Below, piece after piece: positions 21,554 to 51,743 of a stretch of DNA of 51,743 nt. The stretch is from a virus, in IMG/VR virus record IMGVR_UViG_3300023106_000005, positions 1 to 51,743 of that record, one strand, 5' to 3'. A program made the position numbers and the translations under genes. Every line of letters starts with the position of its first letter. The first letter of the stretch is position 1. The notes under the pieces are model-generated. The model made no database searches, was not told where the DNA came from, and worked only from the letters and a program-made list of their open reading frames with translations.

Positions 21554-21561
21554 TATATTTG
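21554..21561 (+). promoter_or_regulatory. Promoter for structured leader 1 (-7 box TATATTTG)
   Basis: An exact TAnnTTTG match just after the YopX stop. A transcript from here would begin with the interleaved-stem RNA. Confidence 0.65.
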
Positions 21562-21562
21562 T

Positions 21563-21661
21563 CTAGTGGTTTATTGTCGGATTAATCACAAAGTAAGACA
21601 TATTAGAATTCCCTAAAGATCAGCTATCCGACAATAGCCCTTTAGGGAATTTCTACTTTTT
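21563..21661 (+). ncRNA. Structured leader RNA 1, interleaved (pseudoknot-type) stems
   Basis: Stem 1: 21572-21582 pairs perfectly with 21626-21636 (11 bp). Stem 2: 21607-21618 pairs perfectly with 21640-21651 (12 bp). The order 1-2-1'-2' is pseudoknot topology. The long first loop carries AAGACATATTAG at 21595-21606. Stem 2 is followed by a T-rich stretch and could act as a terminator. The next ATG is at 21696, so this may be a regulatory leader or a separate small RNA. Confidence 0.75.
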
Positions 21662-21695
21662 AAAACTTAATCAATAATAATTAAATATTTAAATC

Positions 21696-22304
21696 ATGGG
21701 AAAAGCCATCAAAGAAAAAGAAGTGAACGAAGAAGTTCAAGACGTACAAAAAGATTTTGAAATCAAATCTGCATCAATTAAAGACCATCAATGTACTTAT
21801 GGCTATGAAATTTTAACCGGGCCAACTCGCGGAGATCTTATTCCGGGGCGAAAAGGAGTTCATTTAATTCATGATGATTTGAATGAATGTTTTTCAGAGT
21901 TAAGCATTTTCCTAATGCATATCGATGATTATTTCAAAAACGATGAAAACGTAAATAATCAAACGCCTTTATCGAAATTGGAGGAACATGAAGATTTAAA
22001 TCGTTATTGGGTAACAGGTTTCAAAGTTACCGGATTCGATGAAAATAAATCAATTATCCTAACGGGTGAAAAATCTGTAACAAATGGGTTAATTAAAATT
22101 GTTTCGCCTAAAATCAAACTCGATGGTACTTATTTGTACGTTGAAGAATTGAACGAAAGGCTGCGTATTGCTTTGAATGAGGTTGAAGCGTACATGAATG
22201 GTAAATCAGCGCCTAAATTGGAACAAACCGAATTAGATCTTCAAACTTTTGCACAAGAGGATAATTTACCAATTATTGGTGATATGGAATCTGCTGAAGT
22301 TTAA
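21696..22304 (+). CDS. Hypothetical protein before the helicase
   Basis: A 202-residue acidic protein. Residues 25-180 look like a compact alpha/beta domain; the N- and C-termini are charged and probably disordered. No family recognised. It follows structured leader RNA 1 and ends 3 bases before the helicase gene, so it probably works with it in replication or recombination and may be controlled by the leader. Confidence 0.6.
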   Translation: MGKAIKEKEVNEEVQDVQKDFEIKSASIKDHQCTYGYEILTGPTRGDLIPGRKGVHLIHDDLNECFSELSIFLMHIDDYFKNDENVNNQTPLSKLEEHEDLNRYWVTGFKVTGFDENKSIILTGEKSVTNGLIKIVSPKIKLDGTYLYVEELNERLRIALNEVEAYMNGKSAPKLEQTELDLQTFAQEDNLPIIGDMESAEV

Positions 22305-22307
22305 TTT

Positions 22308-23468
22308 ATGGTTTTTCAAGAACGTCAGTACCAAAAAGATGCGATAGCACACGGAATAAATTACCTTCTTGGCGATTCTAAAGAAAATGCATTACAGATA
22401 CTACCGACCGGCTCAGGCAAGTCGGTAGTAATTGCAAAAATATTAGAGCCATTGCCAGGGAAAACGGTAATACTTCAACCATCAAAAGAAATCTTAGAAC
22501 AGAACTATGAAAAGTTTTCAAAATATGGTAGAGCTTCTATTTATTCAGCATCGGCCGGACAAAAAGTAATTGATCGAATTACCTTTGCAACTATCGGTTC
22601 TATTATTGAAAAGCTTCACATGTTCAAAGGAACTGACTATTTCCTTATAGATGAATGCCATTTGTGTGGTCCGGAAAAAGGAATGTATCAAAAACTTTTT
22701 AAAGCTTTTCCGAAAGCTAAATTTTTAGGATTAACCGCAACGCCTTACAGATTGACCCAAACGGAAGATGGGGCGCAATTAATTTTTCTTACGCGCAGCC
22801 AACCAAGATTATTTCATAATGTTCTTTATTACGTTCAAAATTCAGTTTTATTTGATGCCGGATATTTAGCTAAACTAAGATATTTCTCTTATGATGTAGT
22901 TGACAGGTCTAAATTAGAAATGAATAGTTCAGGAACCGACTTTACAACAGCGAGTTTAAGCCGATTATATAAATCTATAGACATGCCTTCAAAAATTGTA
23001 ATGTACGCTAAAATGATACTTTCTAAGCGAAAAAACGTTTTGATATTTTGTGCTACTATAGTCGAAGCGACAATTGTAATGCGCAGAATGCCGGGATCTG
23101 CAATTTTAACAGGAGAAACAAAAACCCTTGAGCGTGAAAGAATTTTAGCCAGGTTCAAAAAAGGAGAAATAAAATGTTTGATCAATGTAGGGGTTTTAGT
23201 AGTAGGCTTTGATTATCCTGCATTAGAAGCGGTTTTAATTGCCCGCTCAACAATGTCATTATCATTATATTATCAAATTGTTGGCCGTGTAATGCGTATT
23301 TTTACCTACCCTGATGGAACAAAAAAAGAAGGTTGGGTTGTAGATTTGGGAGGAAATATAAATTTCTTTGGAAAGATTGAAACAATGATCATCGAGGAAC
23401 CGAAAAAAGGTCAGTTTTCTATATGGAACAATGGAAAACAGTTAACAAATGTTCCGTTAATTAAATAA
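22308..23468 (+). CDS. SF2 DNA/RNA helicase
   Basis: A 386-residue two-domain helicase. Motif I PTGSGKS (33-39), motif II DECH (115-118), motif III TATPYR (143-148) and a motif VI-like QIVGRVMR near 322-329 are all present. The N-terminal RQYQKDAI is a Q-motif-like start. It resembles RadD/type-III-restriction-like phage helicases that unwind or remodel branched DNA. Translated just after the unknown 21696 gene. Confidence 0.9.
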   Translation: MVFQERQYQKDAIAHGINYLLGDSKENALQILPTGSGKSVVIAKILEPLPGKTVILQPSKEILEQNYEKFSKYGRASIYSASAGQKVIDRITFATIGSIIEKLHMFKGTDYFLIDECHLCGPEKGMYQKLFKAFPKAKFLGLTATPYRLTQTEDGAQLIFLTRSQPRLFHNVLYYVQNSVLFDAGYLAKLRYFSYDVVDRSKLEMNSSGTDFTTASLSRLYKSIDMPSKIVMYAKMILSKRKNVLIFCATIVEATIVMRRMPGSAILTGETKTLERERILARFKKGEIKCLINVGVLVVGFDYPALEAVLIARSTMSLSLYYQIVGRVMRIFTYPDGTKKEGWVVDLGGNINFFGKIETMIIEEPKKGQFSIWNNGKQLTNVPLIK

Positions 23469-23485
23469 CTTTAATAATAAATATT

Positions 23486-24118
23486 ATGAAAAAAATAAAC
23501 ATGACTGAGCAATTGGAACATTTAATTTCTGAAGAATCCCGGATTAAAGAAACTCATTTACAGGAATTTTGGAGTAAAAACCAACTGCCTGAAAAATTAT
23601 TCACAGTAGATCGTTTAGGAACTATTAGAGAAATTGAAATCACAGGAAATCATATTGGTTATCTATTTGAAGATAGAAATATTTGGCGACCGAATTATGA
23701 TAAAGAAAAAAGACCAAGCAAAAATTTAGTCGTTGCGTATATTGAATACGTAGAATCAATAAAAACCGCTGAACAGGTTGTTTATATTGATTATCGTGAT
23801 AGGGGTACAGGCTGTTATAAATATTCTGATTTAATAAAAGAACCTCATTTTGCATTTAATGAATTGGAATTACAAACAGAATCAAAAAGGCTTTCTGAGA
23901 CTTATGCACCAAAAGAAAATCATACTGCATGCGGTTATTGCGGAAAACAAACGCCTAATGATAAATTAGTAAATAGTACTATTATCGGGCGTGGGAGAAA
24001 AGAAGTTTATAACGATTGGAAAAGACGTTATGAAAGTAGAGCATATGTAACGCATGAACCTATGAAATTTTGCTCAGCAACTTGCGCAGGAAATGAACAA
24101 ATGTTACGTGAAGGATAA
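23486..24118 (+). CDS. Zinc-finger protein, unknown
   Basis: A 210-residue protein. The C-terminal quarter has CGYCGK (near 149-154) and a later C-S-A-T-C, a likely four-Cys zinc site. The first 130 residues are mixed alpha/beta with no recognised domain. A second ATG, MTEQLEHL at residue 6, is possible. A nucleic-acid-related role is likely from the finger and the neighbours. Confidence 0.6.
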   Translation: MKKINMTEQLEHLISEESRIKETHLQEFWSKNQLPEKLFTVDRLGTIREIEITGNHIGYLFEDRNIWRPNYDKEKRPSKNLVVAYIEYVESIKTAEQVVYIDYRDRGTGCYKYSDLIKEPHFAFNELELQTESKRLSETYAPKENHTACGYCGKQTPNDKLVNSTIIGRGRKEVYNDWKRRYESRAYVTHEPMKFCSATCAGNEQMLREG

Positions 24119-24133
24119 TTTAAATTATAAATC

Positions 24134-24388
24134 ATGCCAACATGGAGAGAACACGCATCGCCAATTATAGCAAAAGTAATTGCTGATAATAAAGGAAAAA
24201 CACCAAATGAGATAAAAAAGGCTTTACATTCTGCCTATCCTTATAGAGAACGCGCCCGACACCCGTATAAAATATGGTGTGATGAAATAAAAGTTCAATT
24301 AAAAACTAAAGTTTCAAATTTAAAACCTCAACCGGAAAATCAGATCGATTTATTTGATATGATCCAAGAAGTTGAAAAAGAAAAGTAA
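24134..24388 (+). CDS. Small phage protein with possible sliding-clamp motif
   Basis: An 84-residue protein. It opens PTWREHASPIIAKVI and contains AYPYRERARHPYKIW, which I know from many phage hypothetical proteins. Near the end is Q70-I-D-L-F74, a good match to the bacterial beta-clamp-binding consensus QxxLF. A link to the host sliding clamp is an inference from that motif. Confidence 0.6.
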   Translation: MPTWREHASPIIAKVIADNKGKTPNEIKKALHSAYPYRERARHPYKIWCDEIKVQLKTKVSNLKPQPENQIDLFDMIQEVEKEK

Positions 24389-24390
24389 TT

Positions 24391-24645
24391 ATGATAACAC
24401 CTGAAATTTTACACGAAAAAGCATTCTATTTTGAATCAGAAGAAAATGGAATATTCCAAAGATATGTTAAACAAATTGATGAAAATGTCGATTTAGTAAT
24501 TGAGGTAAGCCCGGAACAAAGAATTTTTGTTTATATTTTTGAAGATCAAGAAACGAAACACGAAGAAGGAGTAGTTATCCTTTTAAATACTGATGATGTT
24601 GATTTTGCTATTAAAGTTGCGGAATGTATTATTGGTGTAGAGTAA
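24391..24645 (+). CDS. Small acidic protein, unknown
   Basis: An 84-residue Glu/Asp-rich protein beginning MITPEILHEKAFYF, beta-rich by pattern. It starts 2 bases after the previous gene. No family recognised. Confidence 0.55.
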   Translation: MITPEILHEKAFYFESEENGIFQRYVKQIDENVDLVIEVSPEQRIFVYIFEDQETKHEEGVVILLNTDDVDFAIKVAECIIGVE

Positions 24646-24697
24646 TTTAAAATCATTATAAATTACCTTAAATTGTTTGTACATTGAAATAAATGTG

Positions 24698-24705
24698 TAT
24701 TTTTG
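24698..24705 (+). promoter_or_regulatory. Promoter for structured leader 2 (TTTG and TATTTTTG)
   Basis: A -33 TTTG (24676-24679) and a -7 TATTTTTG (24698-24705) are separated by 18 bases, as expected in Bacteroidota. The shared TATAAATTA box lies upstream at about 24657-24665. Confidence 0.75.
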
Positions 24706-24806
24706 TCAATGTAATCTACCACTTACGATAAAGACATTTTAGTGTAAAAACTAAACCGACAAATCCGTTAATAGTGTGGTAGCTGTTAACGGATTTTGTC
24801 ATTTTT
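24706..24806 (+). ncRNA. Structured leader RNA 2, interleaved (pseudoknot-type) stems
   Basis: Stem 1: 24716-24722 (CTACCAC) pairs with 24776-24782 (GTGGTAG). Stem 2: 24758-24771 pairs with 24786-24800, with one bulged T. The order is 1-2-1'-2', and the gap between 1' and 2' is 3 bases, as in leader RNA 1. The first loop holds AAGACATTTTAG (24731-24742), 11 of 12 identical to leader 1. Stem 2 is followed by ATTTTTAAT. The next ATG is at 24819. Confidence 0.75.
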
Positions 24807-24818
24807 AATACTTTTATT

Positions 24819-25067
24819 ATGATAACACCAAAACAACAAGCAGTAAATCTTATTGAAGATTTTTTAGACAATCATACTCAATTCGGAGGTATAGGAATAA
24901 CCGAAAAACAAGCGATTAATTTTGCTTTAATTACTGCTAAAAAAATGCATTATGAATTATCAGATCTTCCACGCATTCCATACAATGAAAAAAGAACAGA
25001 TTATTGGAAAATGGTAATTTATGAACTTGAAAAACTTTTAGCTTTAATTAAGGTTATAAAAAAATAA
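24819..25067 (+). CDS. Small helical protein, unknown
   Basis: An 82-residue protein with the opening MITPKQQAVNLIEDF, helical throughout. It lies only 13 bases after structured leader 2, so it may be controlled by it. Resembles the opening of minus-strand protein 7000-7215. Confidence 0.6.
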   Translation: MITPKQQAVNLIEDFLDNHTQFGGIGITEKQAINFALITAKKMHYELSDLPRIPYNEKRTDYWKMVIYELEKLLALIKVIKK

Positions 25068-25071
25068 TATC

Positions 25072-25362
25072 ATGATTAGTAAAAAAGTATATCGGTATTA
25101 TGCCGATTGTGGTAAAGCGTATTGGACAAAAAGAGCGTGTTTAGATCACGAAAAGATTTGCATATGTTGGAAGAATGCAAAATTTAAAACATGCTTAACT
25201 TGCGTTCATAAAAATATTAAAGTTGATGATGATGGTGAACAGTCTTGGCAATATAATGACTGTAAAAACCCTGAAATGAACCTCAACACTATGTTTATTC
25301 CTGCGCACGAAAAAGCGGATTATATTTGTATTAATTGCCCTAAATGGGAGTTAAAAACTTGA
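25072..25362 (+). CDS. Cys-rich zinc-binding protein, unknown
   Basis: A 96-residue protein with many Cys residues: C-x-C near 26-28, C-x-x-C near 39-42, a Cys near 62 and a final C-x-x-C (I-C-I-N-C). It probably binds two zinc ions. No named family. It ends 2 bases before the initiator start. Confidence 0.6.
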   Translation: MISKKVYRYYADCGKAYWTKRACLDHEKICICWKNAKFKTCLTCVHKNIKVDDDGEQSWQYNDCKNPEMNLNTMFIPAHEKADYICINCPKWELKT

Positions 25363-25364
25363 TT

Positions 25365-26237
25365 ATGGCTGAGAATAAGAAAGGGTTTCTTTTGTATGCA
25401 AATTACATAGGAACAATTAATCAACTTCCGGATGAAGTAGCAGGAAGATTGTTTAAGCATATTTTTGCTTATGTAAACGATCTTAATCCTGTTAGCGATG
25501 AATTATTGCTTAATGTTGTTTTCGAACCAATAAAAAACCATTTAAAAGATGATTTAGAAAAATACATATTAGGTAAACATGATAAAAGTTTAAGTGGTAG
25601 GATTGGTAATTTAAAGCGCTGGCACAAAGATTTGTACGATGATTTTGCAGCCGATAAGCTTAATTTACAAGAAGCTGAAACAATCGCACAAAATCGCAAA
25701 GTATCGCACCGCGATGTTTCGCCATCGCAACACATCGCAAACATCGCTGTTATAGATATAGTAAAAGATAAAGCTATAGTTAATGATAAAGTAAAAGCTA
25801 TAGTTAAAGTAAAAGATTCTTTTGAATTAGAAGAAACTAAGGAGTACGTAGCATTTGAGGAATTAAAAATTCCTCCCAACTCTCCAAAAATTGATTTTAT
25901 GAAACTTCAAAAGTATTTTAATGATAATCGTGGAATGCTTCCTGAAGTTAAAAAAATGTCAGATGCAAGAAAAAAAAGGATTTTGGTTTTAGAAAAGCAA
26001 TACGGAAAAGATTTGATTTTAACCTGTATTAACAAAACTAGGGATTCACCATTTTTACAGGGAGAAAATAAAGCCAATTGGATTGCATCATTTGATTGGA
26101 TTTTTACACCGGCTAATTTTTTAAAAATAATAGAAGATAACTATGAAAAACGAATTAACACCTCAGGAAAAACAAACGAACAAATATTTGTCGACGCAAT
26201 GCAGTCAGAAACAGCTAAAAACTTTAGATTTAAGTAA
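25365..26237 (+). CDS. Replication initiator (DUF6291-type) carrying the origin
   Basis: A 290-residue protein; start set at 25365, just after the upstream stop. The N-terminus (KKGFLLYANYIGTINQLPDE, then RLFKHIFAYVND) matches DUF6291 proteins of Bacteroidota phages, thought to act in replication. The C-terminal part (about 180-270) is helical and DnaD-like in pattern. Between them is a low-complexity linker whose DNA carries phased ATCGCA repeats followed by an AT-rich repeat region, the layout of lambda ori inside gene O. The next gene overlaps its end by 95 bases. Confidence 0.7.
   Translation: MAENKKGFLLYANYIGTINQLPDEVAGRLFKHIFAYVNDLNPVSDELLLNVVFEPIKNHLKDDLEKYILGKHDKSLSGRIGNLKRWHKDLYDDFAADKLNLQEAETIAQNRKVSHRDVSPSQHIANIAVIDIVKDKAIVNDKVKAIVKVKDSFELEETKEYVAFEELKIPPNSPKIDFMKLQKYFNDNRGMLPEVKKMSDARKKRILVLEKQYGKDLILTCINKTRDSPFLQGENKANWIASFDWIFTPANFLKIIEDNYEKRINTSGKTNEQIFVDAMQSETAKNFRFK
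25683..25748 (+). repeat. Iteron array, probable replication origin
   Basis: ATCGCA begins at 25683, 25693, 25703, 25724 and 25734, with ATCGCT at 25743 and an inverted GCGAT at 25711. Spacing is about 10 bases, one helical turn, so all sites face the same side of the DNA. It lies inside the initiator gene. Confidence 0.7.
25749..25816 (+). other. AT-rich unwinding element next to the iterons
   Basis: About 68 bases made almost entirely of A/T, with a direct repeat, AAAGCTATAGTTAA, at 25770-25783 and 25794-25807 (24 bases apart). It adjoins the iterons and is a plausible DNA-unwinding element. Confidence 0.55.
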
Positions 26238-40078: not shown

Positions 40079-40110
40079 TACATTTGTATTATAAAATCGT
40101 TGTATATTTG
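40079..40110 (+). promoter_or_regulatory. Double promoter boxes before the barrel-protein genes
   Basis: TACATTTG (40079-40086) and TATATTTG (40103-40110) are both exact. The TTTG of the first can serve as the -33 of the second (16-base gap). The shared TATAAATTG box lies at 40039-40047. Confidence 0.6.
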
Positions 40111-40164
40111 TTGAACCGAAAATTAGTAATTAATTTATTTGATTATTATTTTATTGGTGGTGAG

Positions 40165-40199
40165 AAAATGGTTGTGAAGTATAGTAGCAACCATTTTTT
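40165..40199 (+). terminator. Leader hairpin with U-run, possible attenuator
   Basis: AAAATGGTTG (40165-40174) pairs perfectly with CAACCATTTT (40188-40197), followed by T. It lies between the promoters and the next start codon, so it could attenuate the barrel-protein operon. Confidence 0.7.
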
Positions 40200-40224
40200 A
40201 ATATTAATTTTAAACTTAAAAAAT

Positions 40225-40446
40225 ATGATGGAAACAATTATTCAAATCTCAATTATCATAGCAATAAACGCTATTTGGTTTTACTTTTACAAAAAAGCTA
40301 TCCAAAGCAAAATTAACATTACTAAAGAATATGTTGAAAGTCTTAAATCTCATAGTGAGTATTTAAAAAAAGCCAAAAAAGATGGCGAAGAATTAACCAA
40401 AAGCTTAGAGGAAACCGTTAGATTAGTAATTCAACAATTAAAATAA
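40225..40446 (+). CDS. Small membrane-anchored coiled-coil protein
   Basis: 73 residues, start at the ATG at 40225 (or 40228). One membrane segment (about 6-20), then a Lys/Glu-rich coiled coil. It ends 6 bases before the barrel protein. A holder or regulator of that protein is possible. Confidence 0.5.
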   Translation: MMETIIQISIIIAINAIWFYFYKKAIQSKINITKEYVESLKSHSEYLKKAKKDGEELTKSLEETVRLVIQQLK

Positions 40447-49755: not shown

Positions 49756-51743
49756 ATGGCAAACGATGGTGTTATTACGCAAAAAGATATTATAGAGGAA
49801 AAAGCCCTTACTATCGGTAAACAATACGCTGATAATATGGTTCAGGCGATTGAAGCAAACAAGCAATTTGTTGAATCATTGAAAGCTATTAATAAATTAG
49901 CTCAGGAATTCAAAGGAATCAAAGATCAATCAGGGTATATTACAGCGAAGCAACAGCAAGCTTTAGAAACTCAAAAAATGATTGATGCAATTAAGCGACA
50001 AGAAGCCGCTGAAATTTCCATGAATAAAATTGAGCAGGAAAGAATTAAAACATCTAAAGCGGATGCGGATGCTCAAAATAAATTATCTGTTCAAAAGCAA
50101 AGAGGTACTAAGTTAACACTTGAGGAAAGAATTCAATTAGAAATATCAAATAAAGCAGCCAAACAAGCTACTTTAGAAAGATTGGGATTAGTAGGCGCTT
50201 ATACCAAATTAAACGCAGCAAGAACAGCCGCTAAAAAAACACTTTTAGATTTATTGGCTGCTGAAAACCAAGATATAAAAGCAATTAAAGAAGCAACTAA
50301 AGCTTTTGATGCTTTAGACAAACGTGTTCGTGCTGCCGATCATGCAGTTGGTGATTTTCATAAAACAGTTGGTAATTATCCAAATTTAAAAGGCTTTGCA
50401 AAAGGTTTAAAAGATTTGGCAGGTGCTTTTGGTTTGGTTGGCGGGATTACTGCATTTGCAGCAATATTAGGTGATGCCTATAAAACTATAAAAGAGTTTG
50501 AACAATCGTTAGCCGATTTAAGTTCCATCACAGGCGCAACCGGTAAAGATTTATCATTCCTTAAAAACTCGGCTATTGATTTAGGTCAGACAGTTGAGGG
50601 AGGCGCACAGGCCGTTGTTGAAGCTTACAAATTAATTGCCGGTGCAAAACCTGAATTACTTGATAATGTTAAAGCATTGAACCAAGTAACGGAAGCAGCT
50701 ATTACTTTATCTCAGGCTGCGGGCATGGAATTGCCTGAGGCCGCTACTGCATTAACGGATGCACTAAATCAATTTGGAGCACCCGCAGAAGAAGCTCAGG
50801 CTTTTATCGATGCCTTAGCTAATGGTGCAAAATTTGGATCTGCCGAGATACCTCAATTAACAGAATCATTATTGAAATTTGGAGCAGTTGCGAGGTCTTC
50901 AAATATAAACATCAAAGAAAGTGCTGCGTTAGTTGAATTATTAGCAGAGAATGGTTTAAAAGGTGCTGAAGCAGGAACCGCTTTACGTAATATACTTTTA
51001 AAGATTTCCGCTCCTGATGCATTGCCTAAATTGGCCCGTGCTGAATTCCAAAGATTAGGTATTTCAATGGAAACTTTGAAAGATCAAACAATTCCGGTTG
51101 CTGAAAAATTAGCATTGTTAAAACCATTGTTAAAAGATAATGCTTCAATTGTAAAAGTTTTTGGAGTTGAAAACGCAACCGCTGCAATCAATGTGCTTTC
51201 CCATAACGATAGATTAAAAGAATTAATCGGTCAAATGTCTGAAGTTGGAACCGCTGCCGAACAGGCGGCTATTAGAATGGACACATTAAATGGCAAGACA
51301 GAATTATTAAAATCAACATATGATTCATTTATATTATCTGTAGGCAGTGGTTCGGGGGTTGTATCGGATTTTTTTAAGTTCTTTATTGATGGCGCTAATG
51401 GGTCTTTAAAATCATTAATTAGATTAAATACTTCTTGGGATGATTTGTTTGGAAAAGCAGCACAGGAAGGATCATCACAAGGGGTTAAAACTTTTCAACA
51501 GCAATTTAATGAGTTAATACGTCCTGAAATAAGTGAAAAAGAACGTAAAAACATTAGAAATCGTATAAAAGAAATTAATGATGCAATTCAATCGGGCTAC
51601 AATGATCCCGCTTTACTAAAGGAAAAAAATTCTCTTTTAGACAGATTAGGAACCGGTGATGAAACAAAAATTGCTATATCTATAGGCAGGGCGGCCATGA
51701 TTCAAAGAAAAACACTAAAAGAAGAATTAAAAAAAACAGAAAA
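49756..51743 (+). CDS. Tail tape-measure protein, N-terminal part
   Basis: First 662 codons of a 1247-codon gene that continues at base 3 of the window. The TP901-type tape-measure domain lies at about residues 248-420 (E-F-E-Q-S-L-A-D-L-S-S-I-T-G, then E-A-Y-K-L-I-A-G and later G-T-A-L-R-N-I-L). The N-terminal 230 residues are coiled coil. The frame runs into the window end without a stop and matches the frame at base 3. Confidence 0.9.
   Translation, partial: MANDGVITQKDIIEEKALTIGKQYADNMVQAIEANKQFVESLKAINKLAQEFKGIKDQSGYITAKQQQALETQKMIDAIKRQEAAEISMNKIEQERIKTSKADADAQNKLSVQKQRGTKLTLEERIQLEISNKAAKQATLERLGLVGAYTKLNAARTAAKKTLLDLLAAENQDIKAIKEATKAFDALDKRVRAADHAVGDFHKTVGNYPNLKGFAKGLKDLAGAFGLVGGITAFAAILGDAYKTIKEFEQSLADLSSITGATGKDLSFLKNSAIDLGQTVEGGAQAVVEAYKLIAGAKPELLDNVKALNQVTEAAITLSQAAGMELPEAATALTDALNQFGAPAEEAQAFIDALANGAKFGSAEIPQLTESLLKFGAVARSSNINIKESAALVELLAENGLKGAEAGTALRNILLKISAPDALPKLARAEFQRLGISMETLKDQTIPVAEKLALLKPLLKDNASIVKVFGVENATAAINVLSHNDRLKELIGQMSEVGTAAEQAAIRMDTLNGKTELLKSTYDSFILSVGSGSGVVSDFFKFFIDGANGSLKSLIRLNTSWDDLFGKAAQEGSSQGVKTFQQQFNELIRPEISEKERKNIRNRIKEINDAIQSGYNDPALLKEKNSLLDRLGTGDETKIAISIGRAAMIQRKTLKEELKKTE
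51617..51743. repeat. Terminal direct repeat, right copy
   Basis: Identical to bases 1-127. The unique circle is 51,616 bp. Confidence 0.93.

Follow-up and report, generated by a model that had tools for sequence, protein, structure and literature searches.

The viral window analysed here, the 51,743 bases of the IMG/VR record IMGVR_UViG_3300023106_000005, carries two promoter-led leader RNAs, leader A and leader B, which belong to an apparently undescribed family of putative viral control RNAs. Each is a kissing-hairpin pseudoknot: the 5'-terminal hairpin I and a second, terminator-like hairpin II carry loops that pair with each other, and this loop-loop pairing (the kiss) is supported by covariation. 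That the RNA family exists is practically certain. An earlier note on the window had described both leaders as bare interleaved stems in the order 1-2-1'-2' behind a promoter. The order was borne out in both by pairings that can be placed by coordinate, as were the stem lengths of 11 and 12 bp in leader A and of 7 and 14 bp in leader B, where the second stem has one bulged base, but the small stem flanking the first kiss strand (S1) had been missed, and the leaders are better described as a pair of kissing hairpins. Their features are given below; the -7 element of leader A and both T-rich runs were read from the sequence.

21554-21662 (+): leader A, the whole promoter-led element
21554-21561 (+): leader A promoter, -7 element TATATTTG, with spacing identical across all relatives
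21566-21589 (+): leader A hairpin I; GTGGTT (21566-21571) pairs with AATCAC (21584-21589) around the loop 21572-21583
21572-21582 (+): leader A kiss strand S1, TATTGTCGGAT, in the loop of hairpin I; pairs with S1' (21626-21636) over 11 bp
21595-21606 (+): leader A linker motif, AAGACATATTAG
21607-21651 (+): leader A hairpin II, terminator-like; S2, AATTCCCTAAAG (21607-21618), pairs with S2' (21640-21651) over 12 bp
21626-21636 (+): leader A kiss strand S1', ATCCGACAATA, in the loop of hairpin II
21652-21662 (+): leader A T-rich run, 3' of hairpin II
24676-24705 (+): leader B promoter; -33 element TTTG (24676-24679) and -7 element TATTTTTG (24698-24705)
24698-24805 (+): leader B, the whole promoter-led element
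24711-24726 (+): leader B hairpin I; GTAA (24711-24714) pairs with TTAC (24723-24726)
24716-24722 (+): leader B kiss strand S1, CTACCAC, in the loop of hairpin I; pairs with S1' over 7 bp
24731-24742 (+): leader B linker motif, AAGACATTTTAG, within the linker region 24731-24755
24738-24742 with 24751-24755 (+): leader B extra small hairpin, TTTAG/CTAAA
24758-24800 (+): leader B hairpin II, terminator-like; S2 (24758-24771) pairs with S2' (24786-24800), 14 pairs plus one bulged base
24776-24782 (+): leader B kiss strand S1', GTGGTAG, in the loop of hairpin II
24801-24805 (+): leader B T-rich run (ATTTTT), 3' of hairpin II

The -7 elements of both leaders, each directly 5' of its RNA body, fit TAnnTTTG, the Bacteroidetes promoter consensus; a -33 box is not obvious in leader A on inspection of the sequence. 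S1' and S2' are separated by 3 bases in both leaders (21637-21639 and 24783-24785), but this exact gap, to which the earlier note had drawn attention, did not hold as a feature of the family: relatives have gaps of up to about 12 bases and the agreement is a coincidence. The T-rich run that the note had placed 3' of the second stem is present in both leaders. The same is true of its shared box AAGACATWTTAG, for which AAGACATATTAG (21595) and AAGACATTTTAG (24731) are the sole exact matches in the window; the box is a local version of the linker motif of the family, A[A/G][A/G]NATT, which 23 of 40 linkers contain, compared with 3.7 among shuffled ones. Hairpins comparable to the extra one of leader B occur in the related loci L243 and L183 and in the second element of L128. 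Single-strand folding gave z values of -3.9 for leader A and -5.0 for leader B, driven in both by hairpin II.

Close relatives of the window phage were located via the genes behind leader A, and the DUF6291/DnaD-like protein encoded behind leader B served as the hook for a wider family search. About 90 loci were scanned downstream of TAnnTTTG elements, and about 40 kissing-hairpin leaders could be told apart, among which there are 29 kiss words; the choice of hook gene and the scan's requirements for a promoter and a T run bias this sample. Evidence that the kiss is real comes from selections that were blind to it. Among 80 distinct leaders picked for a promoter and a terminator-like hairpin only, the two loops were complementary over at least 7 bp in 34 (3.75 expected on loop swapping) and over at least 8 bp in 26 (0.75 expected), while kisses of 6 bp or fewer arise by chance in the same comparison. 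A database pattern built from the linker and stem 2 alone returned 48 matches, 35 of them distinct, and a kiss of at least 7 bp was present in 29 of the 35, a count to be read against the roughly 19% of swapped loops that also reach 7 bp, as kiss words are often related. The other six lack a promoter and look like two coding sequences; the kiss was thus recovered in every match of non-coding appearance. Individual phages carry one or two elements in the sequence read, whereas shuffled copies of the full set give an expectation of 0.3 (kiss of at least 7 bp). In this per-phage list, two short-kiss entries of G014 and one of phage 11b look like chance, and weaker family entries, such as L164 and L161, may be chance as well.

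Covariation was scored on MAFFT alignments that were not fitted to the structure. In alignment A3 (8 sequences) the kiss helix is 100% paired, with four of its eight pairs changed on both sides. In the larger alignment A6 (30 sequences) 97.6% of cells are paired, compared with 82.7% in shuffles and 33-43% when the structure is slid; the kiss itself is 99.2% paired, again with four of eight pairs changed on both sides, and positions 27/107 show all four Watson-Crick pairs (UA 12, CG 11, AU 6, GC 1). The sets around the window's own leaders are small, and their counts alone are modest evidence: in the leader A set (5 sequences) all 11 kiss pairs are kept, with a C-G to G-C exchange in L242, and the hairpin I stem is 93% paired with one pair changed on both sides, G-C in leader A being A-U in L242; in the leader B subfamily (L243, the second L128 element and L183; 4 sequences in all) the seven kiss pairs are kept and three have changed on both sides. 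Homologues with compensatory changes in both stems, which the earlier note had named as a check, are therefore at hand. Its view that structure is kept while sequence changes is right as far as these relatives go, but the sequence is not free, as many members share a GUGRRA-type kiss.

Mismatch types identify the folded strand. G·T exceeds A·C by 61 to 7 in hairpin II and by 16 to 5 in hairpin I, and with detection treating both alike the stems hold 64 G·U against 14 A·C. As the opposite strand would reverse this excess, the folded molecule is the transcript.

The best explanation of these leaders, to which we give a probability of roughly 0.5, is a cis-acting transcription attenuator. A transcript from the promoter can fold hairpin I, followed by an A/U-rich linker with A[A/G][A/G]NAUU and then by hairpin II and a U-rich run. 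Hairpin II would act as an intrinsic terminator, at which a share of transcripts stops after about 95-120 nt, and the remaining transcripts would continue into the operon for replication or recombination. The loop-loop helix could form once S1' has emerged, before the 3' arm of hairpin II exists, and the kiss would set how often the terminator closes. We lean slightly towards a kiss that delays terminator closure and so gives more read-through. On this account the device would be a sequence-interchangeable attenuator that meters the expression of phage replication genes.

Several observations are in keeping with such a role. The leader spans the region from the promoter to just before the operon, its loops are complementary over 6-11 bases, and hairpin II bears the signature of an intrinsic terminator, namely a stable G+C-containing hairpin followed by a U-run upstream of an operon. 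At least six T are found in the eight bases behind hairpin II in 32 of 40 members, a share biased upwards by the use of T-richness as a scan criterion. Mean energies of about -11.5 kcal/mol for the kiss, -3.7 for hairpin I and about -19 for hairpin II (loop strain excluded) are of a size to matter for tuning termination. Other points weigh against attenuation. A clear overlap of the kiss (its strand S1') with an inner hairpin of the terminator (GCTAT/ATAGC) is seen in leader A only, while members of the GUG subfamily look able to form the kiss and hairpin II together; the two could coexist as a coaxial kissing complex, and the kiss then need not affect termination. In addition, the genes behind the putative terminator are presumably needed by the phage, and the T run is weaker in 8 of the 40 members.

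The earlier note had left the choice between a switch, an attenuator and a trans-acting RNA, and of these the ligand switch seems the least probable. H-type pseudoknot and kissing-loop riboswitches, such as the preQ1, purine and guanidine-II classes, are likewise small leader RNAs with pseudoknot or loop-loop contacts beside a terminator. Unlike these, the kissing leaders seem to have no conserved core resembling a ligand pocket beyond the linker motif (23 of 40), their pairing sequence is exchanged freely, and the genes downstream share no metabolite or metabolic theme. Closer in design are the pT181-type antisense-controlled attenuators of plasmid replication genes, which combine leader hairpins, a terminator and loop-loop recognition; there the partner is an antisense transcript, whereas in the kissing leaders it lies in the same strand.

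Alternatively, the leader could be a stabiliser of the 5' end against messenger decay, or hairpin II could gate translation near the start codon, with the T run incidental. This is possible but unlikely. No more than a few bases separate the expected start site from hairpin I, and several members have their start codon about 8-25 bases behind hairpin II, yet it is about 40 bases or more away in leader A, L218, L141 and L143, and a U-run right behind hairpin II, as found in 80% of members, is a hallmark of terminators.

Also unlikely is a small RNA acting in trans, in which terminated or processed leaders would use either loop to pair with nascent leaders carrying the same allele, in a way resembling P4 CI RNA. 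Expression of the operon would then fall as phage templates rise, and related phages would be excluded in an allele-specific manner. P4 CI RNA derives from the untranslated leader of a replication operon, which it terminates by RNA-RNA pairing (PMC4825925), and the kissing leader sits at a replication operon as well. Both complementary loops are present in each RNA, so two copies could pair; the RNA body has been swapped as a block between a near-identical promoter and the same gene when the window is compared with L002; and where one phage has two elements, their kisses differ in each case seen. On the other hand, a second complement to the longer kiss words is almost absent from the rest of the phage sequence: in eight phage sequences, some of them incomplete, words of at least 8 bases mostly occur once forward and once reversed, and this lone partner in the same leader points to action in cis or to self-pairing more than to a separate target. 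Separate target sites of the P4 CI/C4 kind were likewise not found in these eight sequences, the complement being nearly always single and in the phage's own leader. Furthermore, one kiss is common to the tooticki, hattifnatt and hemulen phages of the same hosts, which is unlike diversifying selection. The likeness to P4 CI and P1/P7 C4 antisense RNA (RF01695) is that of untranslated phage leader RNAs, the P4 one fronting a replication operon, but P4 CI RNA pairs with separate sites up- and downstream, whereas a kissing leader holds both partners within about 100 nt; there is also no Rfam C4 match, and host phylum and promoter type differ.

A wider proposal combines both modes of action: a self-recognition system widespread in Bacteroidetes phages, with an interchangeable kissing code in the replication-operon leader of each phage, a code that leader copies would recognise both in cis and in trans. 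We consider this rather improbable. If true, it would provide feedback on template number and code-specific exclusion of related phages, and exchange of the RNA body would swap identity.

An element acting at the level of DNA, either as a part of a replication origin that extrudes hairpins or as a primer-RNA site, is very improbable. The main copy does precede replication genes, and the STAXI motif (RF01728), a pseudoknot near genes for DNA-manipulating proteins and sometimes near C4 RNAs, has been discussed as possible single-stranded DNA (PMC2864571). However, the large excess of G·U over A·C in the stems indicates that the RNA strand is kept, the position behind the promoter is fixed, and second copies precede HNH endonuclease genes. 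STAXI also differs in occurring as 2-3 repeats in Enterobacteriales, while the kissing leader is single, promoter-coupled and found in Bacteroidetes phages. Finally, chance complementarity in ordinary terminators is hardly credible and is refuted for the family as a whole, for although intrinsic terminators are common and kisses of up to 6 bp occur by chance, the 26 leaders with at least 8 bp, the covariation and the recovery of the kiss by a pattern blind to it all speak against it.

Two further candidates were rejected. For a type III toxin-antitoxin system (ToxI-like), no ToxN/AbiQ toxin is encoded downstream, where the matches of the gene products are to families of helicases, replication proteins or HNH endonucleases or to unknown ones. 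For a leader peptide, no conserved short reading frame was seen by eye.

Rfam 15 gave no match at gathering thresholds in the window or in 18 loci with relatives, and at relaxed thresholds nothing over leader A, leader B or the tooticki locus. No description of a kissing-leader family was found in the literature, within a coverage that excludes subscription journals and the supplementary alignments of large RNA surveys. The proposal of an undescribed phage RNA element, with the comparison to Rfam that the earlier note had suggested, is supported by these results. Each ingredient, be it a leader RNA, a terminator or a kissing loop, is of a known kind; what appears to be new is a phage leader family in which a terminator bears an interchangeable loop-loop pair.

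Other searches delimit the family. A blastn search of leader A against phage records gave chance matches only, and AAGACATWTTAG with the promoter as a database probe returned 118 stretches, nearly all without the structure, with one new true relative, L082. In relatives of the hook gene from Sphingobacterium, Pedobacter and Chryseobacterium genomes the leader was not found immediately upstream, so it is not tied to this gene. Covariance model R1, which covers the GUG subfamily only, gave just five matches across 399 Flavobacterium genomes, all of them weak (E 0.002-0.005), and comparable weak chromosomal matches from another search proved on inspection to be plain terminators. Within the GUG-subfamily coverage of R1 there is thus no evidence of chromosomal members.

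Named carriers are the Flavobacterium phages tooticki9-1, hattifnatt9-1, hemulen6-2, 11b and elemoC_14-1A, Olleya phage Harreka_1 and Cellulophaga phage phi19:3. The main copy usually precedes a DUF6291/DnaD-like replication operon, including in the named phages, as does leader B, while leader A precedes a different operon. Each of the two is followed by a small operon, as the earlier note had said:

21696-22304 (+): first gene after leader A, 202 aa, phrog_9513-like
22308-23468 (+): DEAD/ResIII helicase gene, second behind leader A
24819-26237 (+): operon after leader B, with an 82-aa gene (24819-25067), a 96-aa gene (25072-25362) and a DUF6291/DnaD-like replication gene (about 25368-26237)

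Leader A is near-identical in L002 and L006, though the protein encoded next to it shares only 68% identity in the case of L006. At the site of leader B, L002 and L006 have an unrelated body of the same architecture behind a near-identical promoter, with the same downstream gene in L002, and L082 and L125 have yet another RNA body at this position. The transcribed element is thus exchanged as a unit, and a comparison of window 24650-24840 with L002:8450-8650 and L006:8830-9020 showed the exchange to be precise. In L128:3613-3724 and L130:3885-3983 the strands of the kiss duplex GUGAGACG/CGUCUCAC are swapped between hairpins I and II relative to L006:8879-8994.

Second elements precede HNH endonucleases or small genes. 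Kissing leaders stand before HNH/NUMOD-type endonuclease genes at L218:2600-2693, L168:1983-2085, L210:1499-1589 and L243:2319-2421 (those of L168 and L243 judged from sequence only), as if the mobile endonuclease gene carried or adopted its own leader. The kiss of the second tooticki element, read by eye, is GTCGTCG/CGACGAC. In Flavobacterium phage elemoC the kissing leader is preceded, at a distance of about 200 bases, by a tRNA-Ala gene (L216:3361-3436). A conserved motif, AGTT..GGTA.CTTAAAACC, is found at L143:3738, L218:3752 and L221:3758 just 5' of the start codon of a small gene ahead of the replication gene. In the window itself, a further leader with a strong promoter and terminator-like hairpin (40079-40230, at 40103) precedes a short reading frame starting ATGATGGAAACAATTATT and has no kiss. 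Both ends of the 51,743-base window carry the same exact 127-base direct repeat (1-127 and 51617-51743), which fits a complete circular phage contig.

The kissing leaders form an RNA family that is defined by architecture and not by sequence, and that both sequence searches and the Rfam scan missed. Their natural set of differing, terminator-coupled kissing pairs could be used as parts for RNA circuits. Present in named isolates and in many uncultured phages, the family stands at the gate of the replication operon and offers a direct way to test how RNA controls replication in a group of phages for which little is known about gene regulation.

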